Shown: positions 1 through 19,300 of the stretch, one piece after another
Position numbering within the stretch: the first letter of the stretch is position 1
Layout of the letters: every line of letters begins with the position of its first letter
Source of the DNA: Rhynchonema sp. JSB1_4
Lineage: Eukaryota; Nematoda; Chromadorea; Monhysterida; Xyalidae
Assembly: GCA_030248065.1 (NCBI GenBank)
Contig: JASAMV010006142.1
Span: forward strand, 1-64,000
DNA length: 64,000 nt
Direction: 5' to 3'
Notes under the pieces: model-generated
What the model was told of the DNA's origin: nothing
Databases searched by the model: none
What the model saw: only the letters and a program-made list of their open reading frames with translations
Made by a program: the position numbers and the translations under genes

Positions 1-199
1 TCATCCGGATACCCTACAATCAGTTCGAGATCAGGGTAGCGCTGGCGCAATTGAGTAAACAGCTGTTCGTCACCGGCATACTTGTTATAAACCCATATCA
101 GTCGTTCGACAGGTTTTGCAAGACGATCGGACAGCAACAGTTTAGCAATTAGTGTTGTCTTACCAAACCCTGTAATGGCACACACATTAAAGAACTGCG
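1..199 (-). CDS. Polinton packaging ATPase (FtsK/HerA-type), partial
   Basis: This open frame runs off the window start. It contains a hydrophobic strand followed by a Walker A loop (ITGFGKTT) near 150-175, then a helix and a second strand (RLIWVYNKYAG). That layout fits the genome-packaging ATPase found beside the capsid genes in Polintons, which would drive DNA into the capsid. Walker B lies outside the window. The 5' end is unclear: a stop lies just upstream in frame, and a CAG at about 199 looks like a 3' splice site, so an earlier small exon is likely. It sits downstream of the capsid gene on the same strand, the usual order. Any other P-loop ATPase would also fit the motif alone. Confidence 0.55.
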
Positions 200-312
200 T
201 GCATCACGGAACCTAAACTACCAACCTGTGGGTGAACATAAAATCATTCGGCACGGACAGACAATCTTCTCCATGTTTATTGTTTATACGCACGATTGCC
301 TTATTATATCAT

Positions 313-1987
313 CTAGCCAAGTAGTAGTTTCGTCATGCTGGTGTATGCGGGTCGGGGTGAAACGTGCCTGCACTTGGTTATTGCTAAATTTCGCATACCT
401 GTATGACAATGAATGTGTAACTTACCGTGTGAGTCTATCGTAAATTGAGCAGGGTAGATGCACCATACTATGATCATTATCATCTCTCTCACGTTCGTTT
501 GTTGGAACTTGCAAAACAACTGAGTTGGGCCAAACTGTTCTGGGCCGGCCGAATAGCTCGTGGTTGCACGAGCCTTATTTGTTTGGAAACAGAAAAACGG
601 AGTGTCCGAGTCCCAAGAGTTGTACGGAATTTTTGCTTTGCTTTTCAGTTCGCTATACATCGTAACATATGGATGGGTGAAATGGTTTTCGTCGAAATTT
701 GTCTGAAAGATATGCAGTTGTGAAAAATAGTGGATCACACAAGTGCCTCGAAACGCCGTACTTTATATCCAAAAATGCTTGGGAGGTGCTCCGACCCAGA
801 GCGGAGCAAAATTTGTTCGGCACCAAATGGTCGGTACCTGGAAATGAACATTGATTTGTAGCCGACTTATCACAAGTGTCAAACGGCTAACCTGTGTATA
901 TTCGTATCAAAAGAACCGTCGTATGCGGTTGCACTCTGCATAGCTACAACCACTCTGGATGGTTTCACACCGACTGTTACCACCTTATCAAAGATACTAG
1001 CAGTGCGGTCATGCATAAACGAGTATATTTTGTGTTGTGTGTACTTGAATCTCGAAGTCGATGACTTCGACGGAGGATGTTTCAAGGTGTACCTGGGTAC
1101 TGTCAGGTAGGCATTTTTGAAGGTTACTTTATAACGTGGCACCTCGCCATCTACGTCCGGCAGTGTGTCGTGGAATAACACTGCCTCACTCTTAGCAGGA
1201 GTGAATTTAAGTTGAATGGTTGTGTTCTGGGGAATTGGTGTGTTTGAGTCAAGAATGCTCGAATAAAGCCGCGTAGACAGCTGCACGTCCCGTGAATGAG
1301 CGATCATTGCGCTCCGGCGATGCTGCCCCGGGTTCACCGTACCGTCCTCGAAATACCTACAAGTTAAATGCTTTTTTATTGTTGCAAATTCTGGCAGAAA
1401 ACAGATACTTACATTTCCATTGCGCCAGGTGTATCATCGTAATATCCGGCAGCTTGGAGAGTTGTTTCTTTCTCAAATTGCGAAGAAAAATGCAAGGCTT
1501 TCAAAAATGCCAGCCTTGAATATTGTTGACCTGAAATGATACGTATTTTGATCCGCAACTGTCAAAGAATCGTGCACGCACCTGTAGCTTCGACCAAAAC
1601 TCCATTGTAACTGACAAGTAATTCCGAGAACAACGAGCTTGCCATATTATTAATAGGTACAACACGGTCCAGGGCACCAAGATCCTCCCATTCTTGCTGC
1701 CCATGCGCTTTCTTCTGAACGTTACACGTCAAGTGTAGGGTTATGTATCGCGTATCCACAACTTGATCAATATTCGGATCAATACTGAACGAGATGGTAC
1801 CCCTGGTTTCAGAATCTACTGGAAGCAGACTTTGTGCTTCGCATTTTTCGTACACGATTTCGCTGACGTTTCTTAGTCGCCACTCTTCGCCGAACTGGTC
1901 TTGTTCTTCTCGCTCGGCGGTGAGTTTTTCTGGAGGTGGCGCTTGAAATGTTCCTCCGCCGGCGCTTTGCTTTCGTTTTCCGACCAT
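313..1987 (-). CDS. Polinton major capsid protein (F54H12.2-like), multi-exon
   Basis: Four coding blocks on the minus strand, about 1987-1575, 1352-889, 843-770 and 700-430, read as one protein related to the invertebrate F54H12.2 family, the Polinton/adintovirus double-jelly-roll capsid protein. Supporting stretches are a front block with strands ending in SSLFSELLVSYNG, a middle block ending in AYDGSFDTN, and a C-terminal hydrophobic strand followed by FTIDSHG. Gaps between blocks begin with GT and end in AG and are mostly about 50 bases, so they look like introns rather than damage; the first is about 220 bases. The ATG at 1987 follows the penton-like gene by 6 bases. The last exon and stop are not settled. 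It would build the virion shell. The family call is firm; splice points are approximate. Confidence 0.72.
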
Positions 1988-1993
1988 ACTTCA

Positions 1994-2725
1994 TTATTCC
2001 ATCACATGTAGGTCCAACATCAAATCGTAATCATTGGTGATTACCGGCAAGCCATCGGCATTATATAGGGCAAAGTGCAGGGCAGTGGGACTAAACTCAT
2101 CTAACAGCTGGTGATATGTGACGTGTGCAGGGATGAAAATAACAGGATCAGGAGTGGTTAAGGTTGGTAGAGGACACACTATTGGTCTTAACACAGCATT
2201 CAACATATAGTTAGGTATAACTTCCGCACACTCAATATAGTAACGTGACAGCTCATTCTGTTGAACAATCCCTTGCGCATTGAAGGTCAACGGTATTTCC
2301 ATTTGACGCGTTCTATCCGTGTTTGCATACTCTGCGGACAAATCATGAAACAACGCCCGAAACTCTTCTGAGAACCGGACAATGTGACGTGGCTTGAGTT
2401 TTATGACCAGCGGATTCAATTGCAACTTCAACAACGGGTTCGTTTTTCCGAACATGTCCTGCATTTGTCGTTGCACACTGCTTAAAATAGTCATTTCCTC
2501 TCGACCCTCGTACTTGATCTCCATCTCGGCTACATCCGCACCGTTCTCGTCAAGAACTGTGATTCCTAACGTCGGGCGACGCAGCCAGTATGGGTGAATG
2601 GCCACACGCAGTATACCTAATTTCATGCCACTGTGGTATCGCGTGTGCAACGTACATTTCGCTCGTACAGCTCCACTTGCATCCTTCACAGCTGTACCGA
2701 AAAATTCAGGTTGGTGTAATTCCAT
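1994..2725 (-). CDS. Polinton penton-like minor capsid protein
   Basis: A continuous 243-residue frame from the ATG at 2725; the frame stays open a little further upstream to about 2779, but without an ATG. It lies between the integrase and the major capsid gene, the position of the single-jelly-roll minor capsid (penton) protein in Polintons. The composition is beta-rich, with an early helix and sheet segment, a central RFSEEFRALFHDL region and a short hydrophobic C-terminus ending LMLDLHVME. It would form capsid vertices. The assignment rests mainly on position, length and general resemblance, not on a catalytic motif. Spacing to the next gene is 6 bases, which argues for coordinated late expression of the capsid genes. 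Confidence 0.6.
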   Translation of the reverse strand: MELHQPEFFGTAVKDASGAVRAKCTLHTRYHSGMKLGILRVAIHPYWLRRPTLGITVLDENGADVAEMEIKYEGREEMTILSSVQRQMQDMFGKTNPLLKLQLNPLVIKLKPRHIVRFSEEFRALFHDLSAEYANTDRTRQMEIPLTFNAQGIVQQNELSRYYIECAEVIPNYMLNAVLRPIVCPLPTLTTPDPVIFIPAHVTYHQLLDEFSPTALHFALYNADGLPVITNDYDLMLDLHVME

Positions 2726-2783
2726 AATTGATACGTCGTGATATGCTTTTGGACTTACATAGTATCTGTCGAGACGCAATTAG

Positions 2784-3826
2784 TCATTCGCTTCCCAGTT
2801 TTTGTAGTTCTTCCTCGTAGAAAGTTCCGTTGATCTCGACCGAGTCCTCATCCAGTGCGTATCTTGGTGGTGCAGTGGGGAAACGTTTGATGATGCGGAA
2901 TTTTCTTGGCAAGAAACTGGGGGCATAACTTTTTGCAAAAGGTGCGGCTTCTTTAGATATTTGAACGAAGTCACCAATTTTGTATTTGTATTGTTTCTCA
3001 TCGTACAAATCTCTCTTGGAATATTGCGGATACAACCGATCAAACACTTCACCTTGGTTCATGAATGTTACTTGATCGGGTGTGCGACCACCTAGCGCCC
3101 GTTGTGGACGGGAATTCCTTGCATTCACAAAATCCGGTAGCAAATCCACATATCTTTTTGTGTTGGCACTGTGAAAATATTTGTAAATTCTTGTTAAAAG
3201 GTGACGTCCGTGGATTTCGGCCATGCTTGCTTTCTTCGGTGGTCGTAACGCCAACAATACCACGCTGTACCGCTTGAGCACATCAGCAACCATCGTGTTC
3301 CAGAATTCGCTACCTTCGCATTGTGCAGGGGCGTAAGTTATTTATATTTTCTAAAAAATAAAAGCATACCCAAATCTGTTGCGAGCGTGGCATAATTTGT
3401 TTTGCGGTTTTCTGATACCATCTGCGCAAAGATCTCGTCTAAAGCCACCGATGTGTCTTTAGCCGTTTTTCTTTTGATGGCTCGACAATAGATTTTTCTC
3501 GAAAAATTGTCGACCACAAGACAAATAAATCGATATCCGCTGTTTTGGTGCGCAAATTTTTGCATATCGAACAGATCTGAAAGAGACCAGTTTTGTCCGG
3601 TTCAGTCAGAGTCACCGCCCTAACCTGCTTGGTAGCTGCAGCCTAAACCATAGGTCAATATTCTTGCCCGTTTGATCTTTCTTCGCGGAGGTTTAAATGA
3701 GCGATATAACTCTTGCTTTGCCAGAAAGCGTTTTGCTCGTAATCTTGATACTTTGGCTTCTCTCGCCAAACCTTCGACGCCTCCGAAACCGGCAGGGTTC
3801 TTGGGGTTAAAGTAAATCGATTCCAT
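2784..3826 (-). CDS. Retroviral-type integrase of Polinton (F54H12.3-like)
   Basis: Three exons (3826-3625, 3576-3370, 3313-2784) with introns of 48 and 56 bases give an open frame of 312 codons. Exon 1 holds an N-terminal helical region (YFNPKNPAGFGG onward). Exon 2 starts the rve catalytic core with the first Asp in LVVDNFSRK and reaches the second Asp in TDLG. Exon 3 continues with SEFWN and holds the glutamate in KASMAEIHGR, completing a D-D-E triad. The C-terminus carries a chromo/SH3-like segment (KIGDFVQISKEA). It would insert the element into host DNA and make 6-bp target duplications. The ATG at 3826 overlaps the stop of the upstream gene. Without the introns the gene would look frameshifted; with them it looks intact. 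Confidence 0.8.
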
Positions 3827-4208
3827 CACCCACTACTTTACGCCAGATAATGTTATATATGACTTCGCATTGCGGACTATTGAATGGTATTTCCATAAAT
3901 ATTAGGCAGCTTAAATAATACTCCCTCCCGGCTTTCAGAAGAAGTTCGTCGAAACTTGAAAAACCATCGCGTTTGCCCAGTTCTCGCATAATAGAAATAA
4001 TTTCCTCCACCAACAGTTCTGTCTGTGCGTGCTGGAACCAGTTGTTACGTCCTGTACGCAAGTCGTGTTCGGTAAACATGAATGCACTGCTCTCCGCAGC
4101 TTGCTGCTGCCCTGACGGTAATTGGTGGTGGATACAACGTTCGCAAACACGACAGTTGTGTGCGCGGACGCGGTGTCTACTGCAACCATTTTCAATATTT
4201 CTTGACAT
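3807..4208 (-). CDS. Unknown small protein with Cys/His-rich N-terminus
   Basis: A 133-residue frame from the ATG at 4208, first of the minus-strand series, overlapping the integrase start by about 20 bases. Its N-terminus has a Cys/His cluster (HNCRVCERCIHH) that could bind zinc. The rest has amphipathic helical character with two acidic stretches. I do not recognise the family. A second open frame overlaps it at 3935-4195, but the overlap arrangement with the integrase favours this one. A zinc-binding regulatory or DNA-binding role would be plausible but is not shown. Confidence 0.45.
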   Translation of the reverse strand: MSRNIENGCSRHRVRAHNCRVCERCIHHQLPSGQQQAAESSAFMFTEHDLRTGRNNWFQHAQTELLVEEIISIMRELGKRDGFSSFDELLLKAGREYYLSCLIFMEIPFNSPQCEVIYNIIWRKVVGDGIDLL

Positions 4209-4448
4209 CACCACAGGCAAACACCACCTACCTTATATTGCTCCGAGAAATGCGTTTTGCGCAAAAACAACATTGAATTTTTGCAGACATAACTGGAAAA
4301 TGAATAGGAAAATAAAATGGAATGATCAACAGAAATCGATCCTTTATATACCCTTGCAGCCGCACATGTTCACGCGAGCCAGAATAGCATCGTTCTTGAA
4401 CAAGGCGACCACATCATTGACAAAATTCCTCTGGCGAACTATATTTTC
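4209..4448. promoter_or_regulatory. Divergent intergenic region of the Polinton
   Basis: This 240-base gap separates the minus-strand capsid/integrase series from the plus-strand accessory series, so it must contain promoters for both directions. It is AT-rich in the middle, with TATA-like stretches such as CTTTATATACCC near 4338 on the plus strand. No factor site can be assigned by eye. Confidence 0.35.
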
Positions 4449-5108
4449 ATGACTGAGAACTACAATGATCGTGGCGAGGCAGCGTTTACTGACCTGACCG
4501 GCTTTGATGGGGTTTCCTGTCGCGAAATGTTATGTTTCGTGCTGCACCCACTTCTGACACGTGATGCTGACGATACTGACTGTGACATAGTTGAAATCGT
4601 TAAAATTCTCGCGTGTTTGCGATACGATTGGCTGAACAGTGATCTGGCTCACAACGGTGACGCATTCAGGGCACAAACTCATGCCCTTGTGGACAATTTC
4701 ATGCAAACATTGCAGCACAACACATTGCACAATATCCGTATCACCATCGCGTTCGAACCATTGATCGTGTGTTTGTGCAAAATTGAAAATCATATTGTTG
4801 TGCGTGCCGGTGGTGGAAAAATATCGTTTGACTGGCATCATCTCAACCGGACCCGTGCCGAGATCAAACGCTATTTCTTCTCCGCACCCTTTTCACATCT
4901 GCGTCGGGTTTTGATTTCAATTTTCTCGTGTACGCAATCGCTGTATTTGTTGCGTCCTGCTGCATTTGCTCATGCGTTCAATGCTCATTCGTTGGATTCC
5001 AGTTACCCATCACTAAATCAGCTGCGCCACTTTGCTGAATCTGCACTTGCTCTTGACGTTTCCATCGGTTTCTTGTCTATGGGTTGTTTCTTGAACATAA
5101 CCGAATAA
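4449..5108 (+). CDS. Unknown 219-aa Polinton accessory protein
   Basis: A single-exon frame of 219 codons from ATG 4449 to TAA 5106-5108. It is rich in Leu, His and Cys, with alternating predicted helices (CDIVEIVKILACLRYDWL near residues 45-65; FFSAPFSHLRRVLISIFS near 140-157). There is no signal peptide or clear membrane segment and no family I recognise. A polyadenylation signal AATAAA overlaps the stop codon at 5102-5107, a virus-like economy of space. It is the first gene of the plus-strand series and starts just after the divergent promoter region, so it may be expressed early. Confidence 0.6.
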   Translation: MTENYNDRGEAAFTDLTGFDGVSCREMLCFVLHPLLTRDADDTDCDIVEIVKILACLRYDWLNSDLAHNGDAFRAQTHALVDNFMQTLQHNTLHNIRITIAFEPLIVCLCKIENHIVVRAGGGKISFDWHHLNRTRAEIKRYFFSAPFSHLRRVLISIFSCTQSLYLLRPAAFAHAFNAHSLDSSYPSLNQLRHFAESALALDVSIGFLSMGCFLNITE

Positions 5109-5200
5109 AAAATTTCAGACAAATCTAAAAAAAACAACGAGAATCGTCGCCGCGCGTACTATATATTAACGGTGAGTGCGCGTTCATTTCATTGATTATA

Positions 5201-5698
5201 ATGCTAACAGTTAAACGTAAAGAATGGCTAGCAGTGCCTTTGTGTGCTGTTCTGTGCCTGATAATCGTTATCATTTTCTCCCCGAAATCTGTTGAATGGT
5301 GTTTCCATTCACTGTGCATAAACGATAGAACACTTGAGAGTGTTTCGCTTGTGCAGTGTCCTGAAAATCAAACAGTTATCCTAAATTTCGGTGCAAAAAC
5401 GACACCTATCTATCTGACAGAACTCCACTTACGCGCAATTCTAAACTTTACCAAACAGTGTTTGTTGACCGGAGCCATGTCTGCCTGTTCCTTCCCAAAC
5501 TGCCGTAGCGACGGCGATTTTGTATGTAAAACTAGTGGAGAGTATATCCTGTACTCGATGGGACCTGCGCTGGCACTTCAAACACGATTCAACGACACAA
5601 TCTCACACTTCGTTGACTGCGCATTCAACACGGGACAAAGGATTTCCTGTGGTGATATTGCAGGAATCGCTGGCCTGGCAGAACGTCTATTGCGTTGA
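5201..5698 (+). CDS. Cys-rich membrane-anchored protein, unknown
   Basis: A 165-residue frame from the ATG at 5201; a non-ATG start 9 bases upstream is possible. Residues about 9-28 form an N-terminal membrane anchor or uncleaved signal (VPLCAVLCLIIVIIFS), preceded by basic residues. The rest is ectodomain-like, with about ten cysteines and N-glycosylation sequons (NQT, NFT, NDT). The layout is that of a small disulfide-bonded type II membrane or virion-surface protein. No family is recognised. The stop codon overlaps the start of the zinc-finger gene (TGATG), a tight coupling unusual for animal genes and typical of viral ones. Confidence 0.6.
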   Translation: MLTVKRKEWLAVPLCAVLCLIIVIIFSPKSVEWCFHSLCINDRTLESVSLVQCPENQTVILNFGAKTTPIYLTELHLRAILNFTKQCLLTGAMSACSFPNCRSDGDFVCKTSGEYILYSMGPALALQTRFNDTISHFVDCAFNTGQRISCGDIAGIAGLAERLLR

Positions 5699-6182
5699 TG
5701 CACTACTGCTATCATTGCACGTTCCGTCGAAAAGATTTCAATCTAATATTCGCTCATTGCATCGAATCTCATCCCGGCAAAGAAGCCATATCAATCGGTG
5801 GTGCGGCCACAAAGTGCCCGTTCTGCTCTGCGGATCTAAGGCTTCGTCAACCGAAAAACCGGTTGCGCCATATCCGATCGTGCAAGGACGGTCCAAATCC
5901 ACGTCAACCGGCTGTCAGAAAACTGCACGTCTGTGTTGACTGTGGCGCAGCGTTTGAACGAAGCATTCAGCACCAAGTGTGTGATGGGCGTATTTTCTTG
6001 CTCGTACGAAAGATCACCAGTCGTTTCTCCAGGAACACGTCAACGTAATTCATCGCAATCGTACCTACGAACAGTGTCAGTGGTGCGGTGTTCACAGAGC
6101 ATTTGCCTCCGATAAAACACGTAACGCTCACTTGATTCGGTGTCGCAATGCCTGGCTCGCACAACACGCTCCGCAACCCTAA
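5698..6182 (+). CDS. Four-zinc-finger protein (C2H2/C2HC), one short intron
   Basis: Two exons (5698-5976 and 6021-6182) around a 44-base GT-AG intron give 146 residues. Visible zinc modules are CYHC followed by HCIESH (C2H2), CPFC followed by HIRSC (C2HC), CVDC followed by HVNVIH (C2H2, built across the splice) and CQWC followed by HLIRC (C2HC). The third finger is only complete after splicing, which supports the intron. The likely role is nucleic-acid binding, perhaps as a transcription regulator of the element. Its start overlaps the upstream stop by one base, and its last 35 bases overlap the next gene in another frame. Confidence 0.62.
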
Positions 6183-6700
6183 CTTTTACTATCCTTATCG
6201 ACCCATTGACACTGCTGTTGGTAGCGATGAGCAAAGCAACACACCGCATATGACGCAGGGTCAGGTACACAATAAATCTGTAATTCGTCAAAAATCCCAA
6301 TGACTCATGCGTAATATCCCAGGTCGAGCAAGTGTCTGCGATCTATGTTGAATCGTTGGCACCGGCTATCGTTCACACACTTGCGAACGCGAGACAGTTC
6401 TGCGGTCTGTGTGCAAAAGGTGTGCCACAATCGCAGTTCTCTCGTCAACATGTCTGCGGTCTTGATCCACCAAAACTGTACGAATGCGTATCCACAGCCG
6501 AACTGTGGGAGCAGCTCGATGCACACGACTACGCACGAGCATGGGACAAGTACATTGCTCAGCTTCTGGTTGCCCCGAACATTGGGAAACGTGGTCTGCT
6601 CTGGATCATGTCACGCGACTGGAATCAACGCATGTTGCTGTGCATGCATCGTCAGGCGTTGTTGGAATACATCAGTGATAATCGTGCTCGTTTGTTCTGA
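6148..6700 (+). CDS. Unknown 164-aa protein overlapping the zinc-finger gene
   Basis: Exons 6148-6264 and 6323-6700, with a 58-base intron, give 164 codons in frame. The ATG lies inside the zinc-finger gene. The middle has a CGLC followed by HVC motif that could be a lone C2HC zinc site. The C-terminal half is helical, with several Trp (ELWEQL, YARAWDKYI, LLWIMSRDW). No family is recognised. An AATAAA-like string lies inside the intron near 6270 and is probably irrelevant. The shared zinc-knuckle style suggests a paired role with the neighbouring zinc-finger gene. Confidence 0.5.
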
Positions 6701-6834
6701 TTGATAAAGCGTGTACTCTGACATATGCGGGTTGATTTTTCGGTGTTCGGTTCGCACCCACACATCGATCGATGTGTATCTCATTATCATTCATCAAACT
6801 GATCTTTGTGTGTGTGCGCGCGCGCGTTTCAGCC

Positions 6835-8183
6835 ATGGCCTGTCGCACAGTTACATGCGAAACCTCGCACCAAACGCTTCAATTCAGTCACTTGTGGCGT
6901 GTTGAGAAAATCAGTGAGCATCTAAATTGTGCTGTTGGAGAAGCGCTGCACTCGGAGTTGGTACGGGTGGGGTTGACCGTGGGATCAGCGTGTGTGAGTA
7001 CGCTTCTTTCCAGAAACTTCGGCAGCGCTTGCTCAACGTATGTTTTCGACGTGCGACTATATCCGAATGGCCGTGATGACGCATCTGAGGGCTATTTATC
7101 ATTGTTTCTACAAGTTCGCAAGTGTCCTGACGTGAGAATTCGATTCCGGGTCGATTTTCACATCGAGACATCTGTTGGTCGACGGGGCTGTGCCACAAAC
7201 AACAACGTAGTTTTCATTAACAGGAACGGGATATGCACAGCGACCAAGTTCTTCAAGCATGCAACGCTCCAGGTACATAAGAATAATATTCCAATACGGC
7301 TCATACAGGTGTTCACATGTAGGAAAAAGCGGACATCTTCGTTCCTCACGATGTTCTGATGTTGCGCACAAACGTTTCCGTCTATGAAGAGGCAAAGTGC
7401 CGATTGTGTGCAACACAGGATACGAATCAAGCAGTCGGAGGGCTAGGTGTGTGCTGAGTGCTTAGGTGTGTTGCACAACTACCCACAAGCGTTTCAGGCC
7501 AGGATCTGGCGGCACTCCACAAGTCCATGGTCGGCAGTGACATTAGGCTGGTCGTTGAGCGACAAACGTGGCATGCTCATCGGGCGATCTTGATGGCTCG
7601 TTCGCCGGTTTTCATGGCAATGTTTTCACAAGATCAATTTCTTGAGTCATCCTCGAATGAGGTAACAGTCACGTGCTTGCATGATCTGCCCGAGTTCCCA
7701 AACCGCATGTTCAGGTATGCATTGATGGTCTGTCGTCGATTGTTGTCGGTCGAATGATCGAATTCATGTATCGTGATGAATGTGTGGACTTTGAAGAGCA
7801 TGCTGAAGAACTGCTGGTTGCAGCTGACAGGTATACGGATAGGTACCCTAACATCCGTGAACCATACCCGCGTACGTTTCAGGTATCAGTTTGCTGCGCT
7901 CAAACAGAAGTGTGAGGAGACGCTAATCACACGCATCGATGTTGAGTCGGCCTGTGAGGTTTTGCAGTTTTCCGATGCACATTCTGCTCGCCTGCTGTTC
8001 CAACATGCGCTCAAGTTCACCACAGTTAATCGTCAAATTGTTCTGGATCGGGAAGTGTGTGCGCGTACGTTTGTACACACGTGTACCAACAAGATCCCAC
8101 TATGATTTTTTCAGGAGTGGAAACAATTATGCCAAAGTCACCCGCAGCTCGCCATCAGCGTTCTCTCCAAAATGATTGTATGA
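6835..8183 (+). CDS. MATH-BTB (SPOP/roadkill-type) ubiquitin ligase adaptor
   Basis: Seven exons (6835-6971, 7014-7272, 7323-7446, 7498-7661, 7715-7830, 7883-8054, 8115-8183) with introns of 42-60 bases join in phase to 346 codons. Residues about 15-150 are a MATH domain (FSHLWRVEKIS start, YLSLFLQVRKCPDVRIRF core). Residues about 175-285 are a BTB/POZ fold (DIRLVVERQTWHAHRAILMA, RSPVFMAMF, MIEFMYRDECVDF). A BACK-like helical tail follows (ESACEVLQFSDAHSA, EWKQLCQSHPQL). Proteins of this type dimerise, bind substrates with MATH and recruit cullin-3 through BTB for ubiquitination. It sits between Polinton genes and has an AATAAA 26 bases after the stop. Either it is captured cargo, or a host gene sits inside the proposed element limits. 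Confidence 0.85.
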
Positions 8184-8208
8184 TAATTCTGTATTTGTGT
8201 GTGTGTTG

Positions 8209-8214
8209 AATAAA
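8209..8214 (+). promoter_or_regulatory. Polyadenylation signal of the MATH-BTB gene
   Basis: AATAAA lies 26 bases after the stop codon and only 17 bases before the CARD gene ATG. It marks separate short transcripts packed head to tail. Confidence 0.6.
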
Positions 8215-8230
8215 AACATTTTAGATCAAA

Positions 8231-8574
8231 ATGAATGAGGAGCACAAAGCCGTTCTTCGACGATTATCATTCACATTTCAACAACTGATGCAATCCCCGG
8301 ACGCTGTCGCGCTCTGCCTGTACTCACGTGACGAACTGACCGAGTTCGACGTTGAGGATATACAGGCGGTTGGTATCAAGCAACGTGCGGTACAACTAAC
8401 AAATATTGTGTACAGACACACACACAGATTGCTGCGCGGTATCGGAAAGCAGACGCACTGATTCGTATACTGCGCAGGCGTGGACCAGGTGCATTCGATG
8501 CTCTACGTGAAGCACTGATTCAAACAGACAACATTGCTCTGATACGTCAGATTGATCTTGCATTGTCCAGTTAA
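8231..8574 (+). CDS. CARD-only protein (caspase recruitment domain)
   Basis: Two exons (8231-8389 and 8428-8574) with a 38-base intron ending in a CA run give 101 codons. Nearly the whole protein is one CARD. It starts HKAVLRRLSFTFQQL (helix 1), then SRDELTEFDVEDIQAV (helices 2-3), ADALIRILRRRG (helix 4), GAFDALREALIQ (helix 5) and IALIRQIDLAL (helix 6). CARD-only proteins act by homotypic binding to CARD-bearing caspases and adaptors, usually as competitors in apoptosis or innate signalling. It is the last gene of the Polinton plus-strand series, 47 bases after the MATH-BTB stop. Read without the intron it would look truncated at 76 residues. Capture from a host is an inference. Confidence 0.75.
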
Positions 8575-8594
8575 TTTTGTGTCAAAATGTGACT

Positions 8595-8600
8595 AATAAA
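8595..8600 (+). promoter_or_regulatory. Polyadenylation signal of the CARD gene
   Basis: AATAAA lies 20 bases after the CARD stop codon. It is the last transcription signal before the element's right end. Confidence 0.55.
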
Positions 8601-8999
8601 ATTAACAAGCAGTTGCTTCGTTTTGCATGCAATGCATGGCCCGTGTGCTTCTGCTGCCGAGCCATCGGGGCCCTCCAGGCGGTTGCGAATCCTGGCTCAT
8701 TAAAAGGGCGACAATGGCAGCCACGTTATGTGCGAACAACATTATCGGTCTTGTTACTTGTGTAAAATTTTGTGGAGCGAACAACCTTATCGGTCTTGGG
8801 GGGGGGGCAGCGAGCAGAGCGAGCTGCCGCTCGCTCCTTGCTGCTTTTTTGCTCCACGTTTTTCGGATGATCGCGAGTGACAGATCACACGTAACGGATA
8901 GGCAGGGGACACGCGCAAAACCCCGACAATGGCAAAACGTGGAGCAAAATTTCGATTTTCACACGTAAAAGATAGGGCGCAAACTGCGCTGGTACTACT
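8601..8999. repeat. Right terminal region of the Polinton
   Basis: No gene. It holds a 21-base near-perfect direct repeat (GCGAACAACATTATCGGTCTT at 8732 and 8777, one mismatch) and an inverted pair (TTTTGCTCCACGTTTT near 8848 and its complement near 8934). It ends in GGTACTACT at 8999. The composition then changes abruptly to an A/T-rich repeat. This fits a Polinton terminal inverted repeat, but the partner lies outside the window. Confidence 0.5.
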
Positions 9000-10382: not shown

Positions 10383-13300
10383 ATAAAGTCCTTCTTCGAA
10401 GAGCATTTGCATGCGGATGAGGAGGTGCGCTTCGTGGTGGACGGCTCTGGGTACTTCGATGTGCGTGACAACAGTGTAAGTTAGCAACCTGAAATCTGGT
10501 AAGAAGAATGTTCGACAGAGATACAAAAATTTATTTATTGCAAGAAGATTGTTCGACAGAGATATACAAATATTTATTAATTGTAAAAAGAATGTCCGAC
10601 ATATAAATACAAATATTTATAATCTCATAAAAATTTAGTCAGTGAATGAACATGGGTGGAATTTTCGAAACGTTGTAAACGTCAGTTGGGTGTAAAGATC
10701 GGCTAAGCTCGGACGAAAGCTCGGTCAGTGTAAGCATGAAACATTGCCTTCTTTTAAAGGGGATAGTGCACAATTCCTAAACGCCTTTTAAATTTTACGA
10801 GTGTTTAGACAGTGGGCATCACAAAAGTCAAATCACTTGGTAAACTCTCAAACATGCACTCAGGAAATCCAGTTTGAGTCAAACCATTGGAAGCAAGATT
10901 TGACGCAGGCCGGCCGAATTTCTACGTGCGCATTCAGGCAAACTGTCTGATCAAAAAGCTGTCAGGGCGATAGAATGTTTCGCATGATTCTTGAAACTCA
11001 CTAACTATAGAATTTCGCTTTTCTTTATATTTCGAATTTCAATGAATTGTTCCAGCGTGTCTGCTAAATGTTTCATGATCTGCTTGTCACGCTGGAACAA
11101 TTCGTTGAAATTCGAAAAATAAAGAAAAGCGAAATTCTATAGTTAGTGAGTTTCAAAAATAATGCGAAACATTACATCGCCTTGACAGCTTTTTTCACCG
11201 CTGTTTACACCAAGCTTGCACTGACCGAGCCTTCGATCGAGCTTGGGCGGGCTTAGCTTGAATCCGGAAATCGGAATCCGGGTAGATTTCTGGAAAACGC
11301 ATTATTTTTGTAAATTCTTGCGTTTTGCGGAAATAGGGCCCAGATGTTTTTTGCATGCGAATTGTCTCCGGGTTCCCGATTCCGGATTTAACGTGAGTTC
11401 GCCCTTACACCGACCTTTACGCAAACTGACGTTTGCTCCGTTTCGAACATACCACCCAATGTAGCATGCAATACTGCTAACCACACTAACGCAACAGATT
11501 CATTTAATATACAAAGTGATTCAAAAGTGCCCTCAAGATTGCTATGTTTTTGGTCATAGCGTTAGACTGAACGGATATGGTTCGTTTATAGCTTTAAAGA
11601 AGTGGTCAGGCGATTGTGCACACTGTGAAAGAATGAATTGAATTAAACACACCGATCCCCGATGCTTCAAGACACATTTGTGGTGCTCACGCGCTACATT
11701 TGCGAAAACAGTGCAACAACCGGTCACACAATGGATTTCAGTGATGCCGATTCGCTTGCTTTTTTACTGCAGAACTTTCCCAGTCTGTCGGTTGCCTGGC
11801 TGTGTTGCGAGAAGCTATGGTTCATTGAAAGCAACAAGCATTCATTGCACAACAAAGATCAAAACTGAATTAACACATCTTAGGTGCTTCATTTAGCTCT
11901 CCCCGCCCATGCAGACTACGATTCACTACCAATTTGGAAGTTTTATTTTTAAATTTTCTGATCATTGTCTTTTGTTGAAGCAATTTTTAACTTCTTACAT
12001 TAATATTGCTCATAAATAGTTCCAGTGTATAGTGTTCTCCACTTTGTTTGCTGTTTGCAAGCCTGACAACATAGGGGATTTGCGGTATGAGAACAAGATA
12101 CGGATTTTCATGGTTCTTTCGTTCAATAGAACCGGGTCGATCATCCACACTCATTTAGAATATGCTGCCCGTTTCCCTGGTGAACAAGTTCCGTCCAATC
12201 GCGTAATCAGATACAGCAGCCAACCAACAAAACATCCAGGCAAAACGAGGATTCATTAGCTCAAAATCCAACAACTTCAGTTCGACGTTGTTCACAGTAT
12301 TTACAATAATATCAAATACCAACGCACAAAAATAAGAAATTTTATGCCATTTTGCACTATTGTCGCAAGTGTGAAAAGTGTAGCATATGAGCAACAAAAA
12401 TTGCCTTGAAACATCAGGAATCGGTGTGTTTTAGTCAATTCATGCTACTTACAGTATGCTCAATCGCCCTACGACTTGTTTAAGCTAAAAACGAACAATT
12501 ACCGTTCTGCCTATCACACGCTATGGCCAGAAACAATAGCAATCTTGAGGGCACTTTTGAATCACCCTGCATTTCAGGATAAGTGGATCAGAGTACACGT
12601 TGAAGCGGGTGATCTTTTGGTGCTACCGGCGGGTATTTATCACAGATTCACACTTGACACAAAGGTAAACAGTTTTGGTTATGAACAAACATTAATTGAG
12701 ACGTGTTTGGAGAAAATGAGACTCATAATAGATAAAAATTTTCGATAATGGTAGTGTAACCGAGAAAGTACTGCAAGAAACCAAAGAAGCATGAACGCTG
12801 TGTTGACACGTCCCTTTCTTATGAACTAGAACATGATCAGAGAAAACAGAAACACTAAAAATTGACCGGAACAAACGGAAGAAATTCATAAATCCTAAAC
12901 AAAAAAGCATGCACCTTCACACCTCATCACTCCCATTTTTGGTCTTTCACCAAGTTCACGAACACGTGCTCCAAACTGGTTTGTGAAACAGAAAAATCGA
13001 GCAAATGAAATCGTTCCTTGATATCGTGCACCGTGCCGAACAGCGACGACAACATCAATGATGCAGCGGGGATTGACACTTCCACATAGCCGACATGCGA
13101 TTCGCCAACAACACATGCAGGCCAGACAGTTGTGAAATACTGGTGCAGTTCGTCAGCGTTTGTGCTGTCGGACAGACGGAACTTGACCTTGTACGCCTTG
13201 CCGAACTTGTCTTTGAGGTACTGCACCCCGCCGATGCAACGGAACTCGCCGTTCACCATGATGACCAGTCGATTACATAACGTTTCGCATTCGTCCATGC

Positions 13301-16300
13301 TGTGCGACGTGATCACTATCGCACATCCGAGTTGCACTGCTTTGCGCAGACAATTCCAAGCCGATCGTCGAGCTTTTGGGTCCATTCCTGTGGTCATTTC
13401 GTCCAGGAATATCACATCGGGATAGTCGAGTATGCTGATCGCAAAATTCAGTTTACGCCTGTTGCCGCCGGACAGCGCACTGGCCGGTTTAGCAACGTGC
13501 GCGTCCAAGCCGGCGTCTGTGATCAATGATTCGATTACTTCGTTCATGTCCCGCATCGGTACGCCTCGAATCCGGGCGTAGTGAGTTAGGTGCTCCTTGA
13601 CGGTCAACTGCTCAAAGAGAACGTCGTGCTGCGGACAGTAGGACATGTGGCGGACCACTTTGCGTGCCTGAGTGAATATGCTGTAGCCCAACACACGTGC
13701 GTCGCCGAACGATGGCGGATGATAACCGCAGAGCATCTGAAACAATGTGGTCTTTCCCGCGCCGTTTACGCCCAATAAACCAAAACATTCGGCTCGCTTC
13801 ACACCGAACGTGACACCCTTGACCGCTAGGTTTGGTTTCGTACAGAAACTGTTGTAGATCTTGCTCAATTGCTTCACGGTCAGCGGCGAGGGTTTCTGGT
13901 CTTCGTTGTTCAAGATTCTTGCTTCTTCACTTACTACGTCAGGATCGGCGGTTTCGTTTGTTTTGTGTGGACCTCTTTGTCGTCCGTTGATCAGTGTCAA
14001 TATCACAACATTCAAGTTGGCTTCCACAAATATCAAAACAATTAGCATGACGATAGAGAACCCGATACAACGGTACACGGCATCTGAAATCAGGCCACCG
14101 ATCGGTTCATTCCCTATCCATGTCGACGGACTCCAATCCCAATCCCAAGTGAGAAATGGCTCCTTATCGAAAATAATTGGCACCGCCTCATAAAATGCCA
14201 AATAGGTCAGCGAAGAGGTCAGGAAATATGGTGGCAACCATTGAAAAATATTATCTACGGTGTCAAACCCCTCTCTGTCCCGAAAAAGGTTTACAATTAT
14301 TGAAGTTCTAGCCAGACCAACGCCAATAATAGACACAAAGATAATGGCCATTCGGGAAGTGCTGAAAAAAAACGAAGTCACATAAGCAGCCATTATCATA
14401 CCACAGCAGTAAACAGCAGTCAAATAAAAGAACATTTCAAGATCAACATCAAACACGTCGCTATTTTTGAACATGAACAAAATCAGGACACCAATGGACA
14501 GCGCATACATGGCCGAGTCCCACACAAAGTTGGCTAGCCAGTAAACGATTGAATTGAGCCCCATCAGGTGCTGAAGTTGTTTGTTCCCATTGGCGCGTTC
14601 AGTCACAATCACGGTGAGCACGTTGAAAACAGGCGTGAGAAGTGCATAACTGCTGAACAAACCCAGAATTGCTCCCGTGATCACCTCGACGATACTGGCA
14701 GACTCGACGAACGACGTCTCTTCTGTCTCCAGGTGGATCGACGCGCTAGGTGCTTCCGACCTCGATCTCAACACCGAGTTACTGAACGCGTTCAGAAAAG
14801 CCGATCTCATGTAGCGCATATTCAATTGGTAGTAGCCTGCTTGTCGGTTAGGCTCTGACCTGAGACCTGACCACAGGGTGTAGTGATCCTGCTTTTGTCG
14901 AAGTATTAGCTTTAGATAGCTGCGCAACGGCTCATCGAAATTATCGTTTGATATCATTCGTTTCATTGCGTTGGTTAGAAAAGCTGGATCGGTCATTTCA
15001 GTGGGCAGCACAGGTCGCGGTTGGGGTTCCCTTGTGGTCGTTGGATCTGATGAGTCATTGTCATTGTTTTCGCTCTCTCGCATCATTTCCTCGAACATTC
15101 TGCGCGACGTTTCCACACCCATGTTCATGCGCTCCCCGTTATTATCCATGTTCACAAGGTCTTCGAACCTGCTGGTCGGAACGAAATACATCAGAGGCAG
15201 CAAGCCACTTACCTCTTCGACTTCATTGAAGTTTACAAGTGTGTGCGCAATTCCGCCAATAAAATACTTTTCGTTTGTCTTCAACATAAAATCACTGATG
15301 TTTCGGTTCCGCAGATTAAGTGCAACTTCTCCAGACGGCAACTCCACGCGTGGAGCACGCGGGTCAGTTGCGTTGATCGGGCAAAATTTGCAATCGCACA
15401 TCACAGATCCTGCCATTGCGTTTTGAAACGGATCGATCTCATAATCCCAAGCTACAGATTGATTGCACTCCATCTGATGTCGTTTGGCACAGAAATGACC
15501 ATAGCCGTACTGCAAGGCATGTGCCCATGTTGATGTTTTTTGTCCACTGTAGAACATCATTCGATTTTCGAACGCTGCGTCTGACAGGCTGTATGTGATC
15601 AATCTGCCATCCAGACCAGTTGAGGCTATTGCATTGTTCAGAAACAGCATCACACCAGCCAACAATAACGGCATGAATATTTGAAAAAGCAGTCCCAATA
15701 TGCTGCGTTGCGCCAACAGAAACCGTTTCGCGATTGTCGCATAAAAGTTCATCAGGATTAGTTTAATGCCGGTGTGTTTTTTGTATCCGATCTTGGTGGG
15801 ATTAGTTTTCACTGATGACGTGCTGGCAGCGTCATGAGCTTTTTTCGTGTCTTTGTGTTTTAGCTCGGCACCGATCTTGAAGAACACCTGCTCCAACGTC
15901 GACTCGGTGATGCCAAACGAGTCAACTTGCCATTTGTCTTTGTTGATTTCCAAGATTTTGAGCCCTTCGATCAAACCCGGCGACTGCACACATTCAGGTG
16001 GAATGCCGAAAATACTTTCAGTCTCTGAGCTGCTGATTAGCTTCAGTGCCACGTGCTCGGACAAGGATCGAAAAATGTCGTTGATGGGAATGGCTCGTCG
16101 ATGGGCCAGTTTCAGTTGCGACCCATCTCCATATTTTGATTTCAAGTACATCGAGGTTCCAACGGTTTTGAGAATTCCGTTCTGTATGACGGCTATTCGA
16201 TCACCCAGCGAATCGGCTTCCTGCATGTAATGTGTGGACAGCAGGATTGTGGCTGTGTCCTTAAAGTGTAGGATGAGATCCCAAATTGAACGCCGCGAGA

Positions 16301-19300
16301 ACGGATCAATTGCAGAGGTTGGCTCGTCAAGAATGACCGTATCTGGGGCACCCAAGAAAGATACAGCAATAGACAACTTCCGCTTCATACCGCCCGACAA
16401 CGCCATTGCGGCTCGATTCATTTGTCCTGGAGTGTACATTTGCATTTGGGTGAACATCAACTTGCTGTATTCTGTAATCTCCATGTCCGAAAGATTCTTC
16501 AATTTTCCGTAAAAGGCCATGTGCTGGTTGACGGTAAGTTCGGGGTAGACGATGTCATATTGAGGACAGTAGCCAAGTGCTTCTCTGACTTGCGGCATCT
16601 GGGTCCAGATGTTATGCTCACCAACATGTGCGGTGCCACTGGTGGGATACAACATTCCGGTCAGCATGTTCATTGTGGTACTCTTTCCTGCACCATTGTG
16701 CCCCAGAAAGGCAGTAATCTCGTTTTTGTAGAAGTCCACCGTTAGGTTATCCAACGCTGGTTTTGCGCCGTGACTATAAACTTTAGTCAACTGTGATATC
16801 GCTATGCCAACCGGCCGAGCGTTTTCGAATGGCTCAATATCTGGTTTATGAGCTGTTTCGGGAACATGCCCGTTTTCCATCGCGGCATCTGAGTTCAACA
16901 TCTTGTCGGTCAGCGGATTCCAAAATGGTTTCTGCAAAAAGAAGTACCACGGATATTTGAAGCCGTACTTGCTTGGCGCCACATAATCAAAATACCAACT
17001 CAGTATTAGATATACAAGAAATTGACTAATCATCCAGACAAATGTCTCTCCTACCGCCATAATACCATCTTCCTCAACGGGCGATTCCCAAACATTATCC
17101 CATCCCAGAACCCGTTCCTGAACTTCCCACTCAACAACGTACGAAATACCAATGAAAATAGCAACTGTGGGAAGAAGAAAACCGGTGACACGTGCAAACC
17201 ACAATTTAGTGCCGGAGTATCCCACTCTTGGAACGAGCAAGCCCCATTGTGGAACAAAAAAACCAATTATCACAATAGTGAGCATGCTGACACTGGCTTG
17301 TTGAGCATCAGGTATCACGCTTGACACAACAAAACACAAGCCGATTAAACCCAGACCGTGTGCAAGGCAGAGAGAAACGAACAGGGACTTGTCGACGTAC
17401 TCGAACACTTTGTCGCTGCTGTACAAGAATACCAACGCTACAATGAGGTGAACAGACAGCACAAACGTACAACTAAAGATGAACCAACTCAGCTTAATCT
17501 TCAGGCGACTAACACCTCGTATGAGCAAAAACTCGAGCAAACCCGCCGATTTCTCGTAACACATTTCAGCCGCTATTGAGTAAAGAATAAGAATCATACC
17601 ATCAGAAAACACGACAAACATCACTACCGTGAATGAATTATAGACAGCCGGATCCTTATGACATCTTCTCGGCAGCCACTTCTGAGCAATATTGATTGTG
17701 TTTACTGGCTCACCAGTCTCGTGCCCAATAATGCCAGCTTCTACCAGCGCTTGTAGGTAGAGAGTTGACAGCCTTCGTCGAGTCAAGTACTCCGTCGTCA
17801 ATCGGTAGGAATTCTGTGACACAATAGCGAGCTATGTCTGGATTTAGGTAGTGTTTGCGTACACCGTTGCTCTTGTGGACGTGGTTTCTGGTCATTATGT
17901 TGGATCGAATCTGTTCGGCGACCGCTTTACCACACAAGTGTTTTTACTCCCAACGTTTTCCTCCGAGGACACTTTTTCAAAAAGACAAGGCAGGTAAAGA
18001 TCACGAAAATCTAAAAAATGAGAAAAGAGAGAAAACCAGAAAACGAGAGAGCTAAGTGCATGCGACCAACAATCAGAGAGACGTAAACCGCCAGTATCAT
18101 TGAGCTCAGGTTTGTGCGTGCAACTGAATGTAAAGCATTTCAGCCCATCTTGGCTGGTGTTCATTACGCTTTTGTGCCAGAGTTGTTATGTTGTTTTGAA
18201 ACGGACTCGTAGGTGAGTAGTCAGACCAGACACATTCTCGGTCATGTATCGCTCTTCTTTGTGTGCTCTGCGACGCACATCACGCGCATCATTCGTGACC
18301 CATTGCTCACACTTACACATACATAATCTCTCAAGACAACACAACCATTCTGGCACATTAGGGTAGTGAACACCAGCTGAGATGGGCTGAAACGCTTCAC
18401 TTTGAATTGCACAAACCTGAGCTCGATGATACTGGTGGTTTACGCCTCTCTGATTGTTGGTCACATGCATGTTCTCATGTTTTTTGTTTCTATCTTTTTT
18501 ATTTTTTTTAGGTTTTCGTGACCTTTCTGTGCCTTTACAGGTTTTCCCTTAAAAGTGTGCTCAAACGCTGGGAGTAAAAACATTCGAGTGGTAAAGCGGT
18601 CGAAAGGATTCAATTCAACATGTCTGGATTTATTTAGGACGCGTCAAGCAGGGTTGGGCAAAAAAAAAATTAAAAAAAAAAGAAAATTTTTTTTTTAAAA
18701 AAAAGGTTTTTGAAAAAATTTTTTTTAAAAAAAAAAAATTTTTTTTTTAAATTTTCGGGGGAACAAAATGTTCTAAAACGTCCAAAAATGGCCTTTTTGG
18801 GGGTTATTTTTTGTCATTTTTTCTCAAGGGTCGAAAAATTTTCTTCACAAAATCACTTTTGGGGCATGTATTTGGTACCTAAGATACCCCAAATGATGTT
18901 ATTATACCTTCCCGTAATACATGGGACACAGTATGCATGTGCCTACATGGTACTTCGATGTCATACCCCATCAGGTCGGTCATATACGACTGATTCAGCT
19001 ACCCGACAAGTATTTTCTGCAGCTTATATTCTCAATTCTGTGTGGTTTATGAGTGAATCTTGCTTATTCGGCCACAAACTATTGTGTCCGATACCACAGA
19101 GCAGCAATCAGCGGTCCATATCAAGCACAGACTGTTGGATCGCACCGAAATGACGTAAACACCCTTGATAAGTGATGCAAACCAAGTCACAAAAGTGACT
19201 TGCCAATTAAAGTTGCATTTTTTCGCGATTTTGCGCGTTTTTTAGGCAAATTTGGTAAAATTTCCCCGAATCTCAGACTTTTTAAAAAAAAAACTTGTTT

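Follow-up and report, generated by a model that had tools for sequence, protein, structure and literature searches.

In this work, we analysed the first 64,000 bases (hereafter the window) of contig C3760 (122,582 bases; JASAMV010006142.1) of the nematode Rhynchonema sp. JSB1_4, and focused on two adjacent genes at positions 6835-8574, one encoding a MATH-BTB protein and the other a CARD-only protein. These genes are a real, conserved pair carried by a Polinton-like element. Probably, they form the right-end cassette of this multi-copy element, in which the CARD protein would act as a decoy against caspase activation and the MATH-BTB protein as a cullin-3 (Cul3) adaptor. Genome searches were run on the whole assembly (203.9 Mb, 5747 contigs).

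The gene pair and the repeated unit that carries it

A single-frame reading was rejected for both genes, as both need splicing. The MATH-BTB gene model comprises six exons (6835-7272, 7323-7446, 7498-7667, 7715-7830, 7883-8054 and 8115-8183) and five GT..AG introns of 50, 51, 47, 52 and 60 nucleotides (nt), with phases consistent across every junction and no stop ahead of the last codon. The CARD gene model comprises two exons (8231-8389 and 8428-8574) and a 38-nt GT..AG intron, with agreeing phases and no early stop; its stop codon (8572-8574) comes directly after the CARD, and neither a further domain nor a caspase catalytic domain is present. The features of the pair and of its right flank are the following:

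6835..8183, + strand: MATH-BTB gene, six exons, 362 codons (predicted); Pfam MATH_2 and BTB, gene model, homologues in the sister elements on contigs C1507 and C3180
8209..8214, + strand: AATAAA 3' of the MATH-BTB stop (sequence)
8231..8574, + strand: CARD-only gene, two exons, 101 codons (predicted); Pfam CARD in exon 2 (below cut-off), CED-3 profile match, kept in C1507 and C3180
8595..8600, + strand: AATAAA 3' of the CARD stop (sequence)
8731..8733, no strand: right boundary of the repeated unit; the window and the copy on contig C3563 agree up to 8733, then diverge

The first-pass annotation had described a complete 346-codon MATH-BTB gene and a 101-codon CARD gene lying 47 bases apart, each with its own AATAAA. 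The CARD codon count, the 47-base gap (from the MATH-BTB stop to the CARD ATG) and the two AATAAA signals (at 8209 and 8595) recur in our models; the MATH-BTB gene is likewise complete with both domains, but its length is 362 codons in our model.

Pfam searches, run on the pieces separately, detected MATH_2 (PF22486) in the MATH-BTB gene at E 1.7e-8 (35.2 bits, cut-off 32) and BTB (PF00651) in exon 3 at E 3.4e-11 (43.8 bits, cut-off 20.5), the BTB match of exon 4 (E 0.0088) being below cut-off. The order MATH then BTB, both above cut-off, is the architecture of SPOP-like adaptors, and exon 3, i.e. the BTB exon, has SPOP as its best PDB match. Exon 2 of the window CARD matched CARD (PF00619) at E 5.8e-4 with 20.3 bits, below the cut-off of 23.9 that its C3180 counterpart barely exceeds (24.0 bits, E 3.9e-5); exon 1 matched CARD_2 alone, below cut-off (E 0.089). 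On these matches, the predicted protein can be assigned a CARD fold.

Used as a DNA query against its own genome, 6835-8574 returned four matches, one to the window itself, two within the C3563 copy and one at the margin of another copy, on C2647. The C3563 copy matches window 1-8733 at about 99 % identity, and its flanks differ beyond 8733, a position taken as the terminus because the two copies part there. The C2647 copy is identical to window 1-5286, and two more pieces, at about 98 %, reach 7228, i.e. the end of that contig (window 5287-5483 is unaligned and 6483-6727 is missing). To the left of the window edge, both copies continue with a packaging ATPase, a BTB-like open reading frame (ORF) and a PC4-like ORF, the latter two below cut-off, and PolB. 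In C1507, the stretch that begins with the PolB piece (from 4318) and closes with the CARD gene (up to 20,692) spans about 16 kb, and an ORF (C1507:555-1049) with a counterpart past PolB in C2647 suggests an element length of about 20 kb or more. No terminal inverted repeat, the left one included, was found in the stretches examined, no copy being covered end to end.

The sister elements were compared with the window by tblastn, using 17 window pieces (last MATH-BTB exon excluded) against C1507:12001-22000 and C3180:42001-48500. Sixteen of the 17 pieces were recovered in C1507 and 11 in C3180, where six upstream pieces could not be seen because the examined stretch starts inside ORF4449. Among the seven query pieces belonging to MATH-BTB and CARD, all were recovered in order in C3180 and six in C1507. 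In both sister elements, ORF4449, ORF5192, ORF5695, ORF6332, MATH-BTB and CARD keep the order and strand that they have in the window. A chance origin of the gene pair is excluded, mainly because the sister elements keep these pieces in order. The proteins of the pair are 35-66 % identical to those of the window: 56 % (C1507) and 66 % (C3180) for CARD exon 1, 55 % and 53 % for CARD exon 2, 44 % and 38 % for MATH, and 39 % and 52 % for BTB exon 3.

In codon comparisons, the proportion of synonymous differences (pS) ranged from 0.66 to 0.97, save for two fifth-exon comparisons (1.12 over 3 codons and 0.58 over 26 codons), i.e. synonymous sites are near saturation. The proportion of non-synonymous differences (pN) was far smaller, i.e. 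0.17-0.35 for CARD (at pS 0.75-0.86) and 0.27-0.47 for the MATH and BTB exons. In the comparison with C1507, pN reached 0.23 and 0.27 for the CARD exons, 0.20 for the ATPase, 0.25 for an integrase piece, 0.34 for ORF6332, 0.39 for MATH, and 0.47 and 0.27 for the BTB exons; by these values, the constraint on the CARD comes close to that on the core genes, and MATH-BTB is less constrained. The pair is therefore old, being present in three diverged element lineages.

Across the genome, CARD exon 2 gave seven matches at E<=1: four in the window, C3563, C1507 and C3180, and three more distant ones in C2279, C3270 and C3207. The BTB exon gave 11 matches at E<=0.01, from which C1507 is absent although it was found by tblastn with its stretch. 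The ATPase gave 79 matches at E<=0.001 on 62 contigs, the weakest of which may be other P-loop proteins; CARD matches occur on four of these 62 contigs and BTB-exon matches on three. The first-pass placement of the pair inside a Polinton-like element thus stands, since C3563 shares the unit up to 8733 and the sister elements hold the pair in the same place. Nor was the pair met in this genome at a locus lacking the element: the four CARD matches (out of seven) with MATH-BTB in front lie on ATPase contigs, and the other three (C2279, C3270 and C3207) had no MATH-BTB match within the short flanks examined.

Caspase likeness of the CARD and possible roles of the pair

A profile built from five CARD exon-2 sequences was compared with PDB (177,635 distinct sequences). 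CED-3 was the best match (E 3.8e-5), followed at E<=1 by interleukin-24 (0.26), RAIDD (0.29), a designed protein (0.71) and Dronc (0.74); CARD exon 1 alone matched RAIDD only (E 1.1). By sequence, the element CARD looks like an initiator-caspase prodomain.

Contig C1056 holds two CARD exon-2 matches, each followed by caspase pieces on the same strand and each preceded by a likely CARD exon 1, readable by eye. In one of these caspases, the CARD (E 4.2e-8) and the caspase domain (E 1.2e-7) were both matched; its caspase piece is nearest to CED-3 in PDB (E 4.8e-8), and its CARD has Apaf-1 as best PDB match (2.4e-4), with CED-3 at 7.2e-4. The C1056 caspases were taken as host genes because catalytic pieces are present and arranged in a row; the contig also has a weak ATPase match about 45 kb away (C1056:69556-69885, E 1.1e-4). 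Element and C1056 caspase CARDs both seem to be interrupted in a similar region by an intron, not necessarily the same one, and they have in common an R-x-GP-x-(A/T)F stretch. One of the caspase CARDs (CARD a) is, by exon-2 score, closer to the CARDs of C2279 and C3270 than to the window CARD. Three element CARDs cluster in the exon-2 tree (0.995), and in the exon-1 tree the element CARDs form no well-supported group separate from the rest; such single-exon trees are weakly supported and, because the exons are short, cannot tell host capture from passage between elements, for CARD as for MATH-BTB.

The CARD family search of the genome returned 14 matches at E<=1 (in the control, two of 14 genomes matched too, none above cut-off). 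An expanded set of other CARD proteins seems to be present on C3893, C3763, C5279, C4145, C3334, C848 and C2137 (L064-L070); no caspase frame was recognised by eye in the flanks examined on these seven contigs, and one C848 frame has two CARD matches.

We propose that the element CARD, as a stand-alone caspase prodomain, would occupy the CARD of a host CED-3-like caspase or of a CED-4/Apaf-1-like activator, and that this occupancy would stop caspase activation during replication of the element. The MATH-BTB protein would recruit particular host proteins for ubiquitination by cullin-3. Both proteins would serve the same host-control cassette as separate arms, without having to contact each other; this putative cassette would run rightward at the right end of the element and finish with MATH-BTB, then the CARD-only gene. 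A candidate target for the CARD is present, since the genome has CED-3-like CARD caspases on C1056. The whole case for the cullin-3 adaptor consists of the domain order and of a hydrophobic-x-Glu motif found in three elements, readable as FLE in the window, MAE in C3180 and MLE in C1507; such a motif is presumably a Cul3 contact, and cullin-3 binding of the element protein is putative. A block of caspases is supported by frog virus 3, in which deletion of vCARD is reported to lower replication and raise apoptosis (PMC8524050).

Several observations weigh against this proposal. The counts on ATPase contigs given above restrict the pair to one clade of Polinton-like elements. MATH-BTB evolves faster than CARD (pN 0.27-0.47 for the MATH and BTB exons), and the strength of selection is known only roughly because synonymous change is saturated. 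The C3563 copy carries an insertion of about 650 bases within the MATH exon, near window 7231-7235. As aligned, the third exon (BTB) of C1507 contains one in-frame stop, and the C3180 MATH stretch taken whole contains two; these stops may reflect a further intron or decay. The fifth MATH-BTB exon was missed in C1507 by tblastn, a similar stretch being readable by eye in a 206-residue ORF of that contig (L060:7663-8283). Identity between the window CARD and the caspase CARDs is low, i.e. 13/43 and 15/30 aligned residues for caspase CARD a, and 14/42 and 15/40 for caspase CARD b. Finally, CARDs are able to activate too, and not just to block.

Other explanations were weighed against the same evidence. 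The idea that MATH-BTB and CARD are host genes beside the true end of the element, or passengers in one copy, could draw on the existence of MATH-BTB and CARD genes elsewhere in the genome and on the terminal repeats not found in the stretches examined; it was rejected, being largely refuted by the boundary at 8733 shared with C3563 despite different flanks and by the same gene order in two sister elements near synonymous saturation, and we grant it almost no probability. Alternatively, the CARD could act as an agonist, or as a scaffold, and set off death or inflammation-like signalling, e.g. killing competitor-infected cells in a virophage-like manner from which the host would profit. As is generally true of death-fold domains, a CARD on its own may either nucleate or block, and endogenous virophages can protect protist hosts (PMC10945749). 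However, no sequence feature favours activation, the caspase catalytic domain is absent and the vCARD of frog virus 3 is reported as anti-apoptotic (PMC8524050); we consider an agonist distinctly unlikely.

Both proteins might also have targets outside these pathways, a viral or chromatin substrate for MATH-BTB and non-apoptotic CARD proteins for CARD. The 14 CARD family matches, with seven contigs lacking a recognised caspase frame, would offer such partners, but the top PDB match of the element CARD profile is a caspase prodomain and the R-x-GP-x-(A/T)F stretch is common to element and C1056 caspase CARDs; we regard this possibility as rather unlikely. A closer coupling can also be imagined, in which the two proteins would be one working unit, the CARD binding the caspase or its activator and MATH-BTB marking the complex for cullin-3, so that the death machinery would be removed and not just blocked. 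This is very unlikely in our estimation, and we know of no two-gene CARD/MATH-BTB system of this kind described in Polintons.

Core genes, further reading frames and side observations

The element is Polinton-like judging from its core genes, listed here with the other conserved ORFs of the window:

3..185, - strand: start of an A32-like packaging ATPase, truncated at the contig end and whole in C3563 and C2647; 98 % identical to the C3563 copy
313..1987, - strand: three ORFs (1562-1987, 879-1433 and 313-738); 60-68 % in C1507
1994..2779, - strand: 261-residue ORF; 53-54 % in C1507
2784..3832, - strand: integrase, in pieces 3623-3832, 3341-3601 (core) and 2787-3341; Pfam rve, below cut-off; C-terminal piece 61 % in C1507
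3807..4220, - strand: conserved ORF upstream of the integrase; 58 % in C1507
4449..5108, + strand: ORF4449, conserved; 42-44 % in the sister elements
5192..5698, + strand: ORF5192, with an N-terminal hydrophobic stretch and rich in cysteine, a possible membrane protein (sequence read directly); 41-42 % in the sister elements
5695..6048, + strand: ORF5695, zinc-finger-like; C2H2 matches weak and below cut-off; 46-51 % in the sister elements
6332..6700, + strand: ORF6332, with cysteine pairs, immediately upstream of MATH-BTB; 48-50 % in C1507 and C3180

PolB is clear in C3563 (L007:801-1124; DNA_pol_B_2, E 1e-10, above cut-off), its window copy lying beyond the contig end; the N-terminal piece adjoining it, as present in C2647, shares 51 % identity with a piece of C1507. 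The PC4-like ORF of C3563 (E 1.3e-4) and the Pox_A32 match of its ATPase (E 0.0049) are below the Pfam cut-off, and the GKT of the ATPase is invariant in 10 aligned rows (of the 79 genome matches). The integrase core 3341-3601 matched rve at E 8.1e-4 and its C1507 counterpart at E 6.8e-4, i.e. below the curated cut-off in two of two elements; the retrovirus-like (rve) integrase that is a feature of Polintons/Mavericks is thus weakly recognisable.

The 261-residue ORF (1994-2779) presumably occupies the position of the Polinton minor capsid protein, and we take the three ORFs of 313-1987 to resemble pieces of the major capsid protein. No capsid family was matched in Pfam by the ORFs at these positions, and a profile of the 261-residue ORF scored no homologue among 4428 candidates of the protein collection. 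The predicted structures of two capsid-like ORFs were poor, with a predicted local distance difference test score (pLDDT) of 45 for the 1562-1987 piece and of 32 for the 261-residue ORF. No ORF was recognised as an adenain-type cysteine protease, no search aimed at such a protease having been made. Among IMG/VR viral contigs, no relative of the element was confirmed with the ATPase, an alignment of 10 ATPases, CARD exon 2 (single sequence or profile) or the BTB exon, and in the protein collection the ATPase scored no relative among 102 candidates.

A second BTB-like protein, of 270 residues, adjoins the ATPase in C3563 (L006:6447-7256; BTB E 0.0056, below cut-off). Its identity is 51-53 % to the C1507 and C3180 counterparts and 24-28 % to stretches of four other ATPase loci. 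About 0.8 kb past the CARD gene of C1507, an ORF on the reverse strand (L060:9512-9832) resembles by eye a PolB-side ORF (L006:9068-9439), as if another element had been inserted beside the C1507 element.

Among the more distant CARD loci, C2279 (L026, C2279:10986-14123) has at 577-2330, on the reverse strand, a compact one-strand cluster that includes a two-exon CARD gene, a cysteine-rich ORF, a Bcl-2-like ORF (E 0.0011, below cut-off) and an ORF with an eIF5/eIF2B domain (E 1.9e-21); a partly broken relative of this cluster lies on C3207 (L028). The C2279 cluster is possibly another virus-like element. MATH-BTB genes are also found on C3476 (L036) and C3234 (L038), in both cases with a similar cysteine-rich ORF nearby on the opposite strand, and on C3476 there is another BTB match, which is inverted (L037).

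A motif of about 80 nt (window 8640-8721) lies downstream of the CARD polyadenylation signal and ahead of the unit boundary. Further copies are located where tandem arrays end on C5247 (three copies), C2109 and C3855, and others occur on C830 and C1298. Scanned as RNA, the motif had no Rfam match in the window or at four loci, and the fold stability of two copies out of two was not above that of shuffled sequences. Further along the window, an ABCA-type transporter ORF of 1631 residues (12930-17822, reverse strand) is a single open frame without introns; its three top matches, in the best 120 listed, are from the nematode Plectus sambesii (967, 834 and 791 bits, the next one having 641). Together with the CED-3-like caspases, these matches point to a nematode or a close relative as host. 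An exact-match search found no exact copy of the SL1 leader.

Significance and comparison with known systems

If the interpretation as CARD decoy and Cul3 adaptor is true, Polinton-like elements keep a mimic of a caspase prodomain nearly as strictly as their packaging ATPase. This would fit a virus whose host defends itself by programmed cell death, and would not be easily explained in a plain transposon. It would become testable whether animal Polintons still act as viruses and whether nematodes and related animals are protected from viruses by CED-3-type apoptosis. The large MATH-BTB family of nematodes would also be tied to mobile virus-like elements.

Among the open-access papers searched, none joins the whole words Polinton, CARD and BTB. 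In the available portion of PMC6431247, mentions of MATH and BCL-2 belong to a section on giant Gypsy-like planarian elements. That the pair was undescribed in Polintons, as first suggested, is therefore borne out for the open-access papers searched, the founding adintovirus paper and the primary papers on nematode Maverick cargo excepted.

The element MATH-BTB protein shares with SPOP-type cullin-3 adaptors the order MATH then BTB and, for its BTB exon, SPOP as top PDB match; it differs from them in that its gene lies on a mobile element and consists of six exons separated by short introns. The element CARD is of a type similar to that of CED-3 and caspase-2 type initiator caspases, and the C1056 caspase CARDs also seem to have two exons, whereas the element protein stops after the CARD and has no protease domain. 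The ranavirus vCARD (frog virus 3) is likewise a viral CARD protein tied to reduced apoptosis (PMC8524050), but it belongs to a large vertebrate iridovirus, the likeness drawn here is one of description, and no MATH-BTB partner is mentioned in the available portion of that source. Adintoviruses are animal relatives of Polintons too, but CARD, BTB, MATH and Bcl never occur in the main text, as available, of one adintovirus paper. The nematode Mavericks/Polintons of Widen and colleagues differ in their cargo, which in the available portion of PMC10680173 is named as wosp proteases and krma kinases and not as MATH-BTB or CARD; like the present element, they are virus-like, with polymerase, integrase and capsid genes, and have acquired nematode gene families (PMC10680173). 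As a kind, host-control cargo of Polinton-like viruses is already known, and the MATH-BTB and CARD pair would belong to it.

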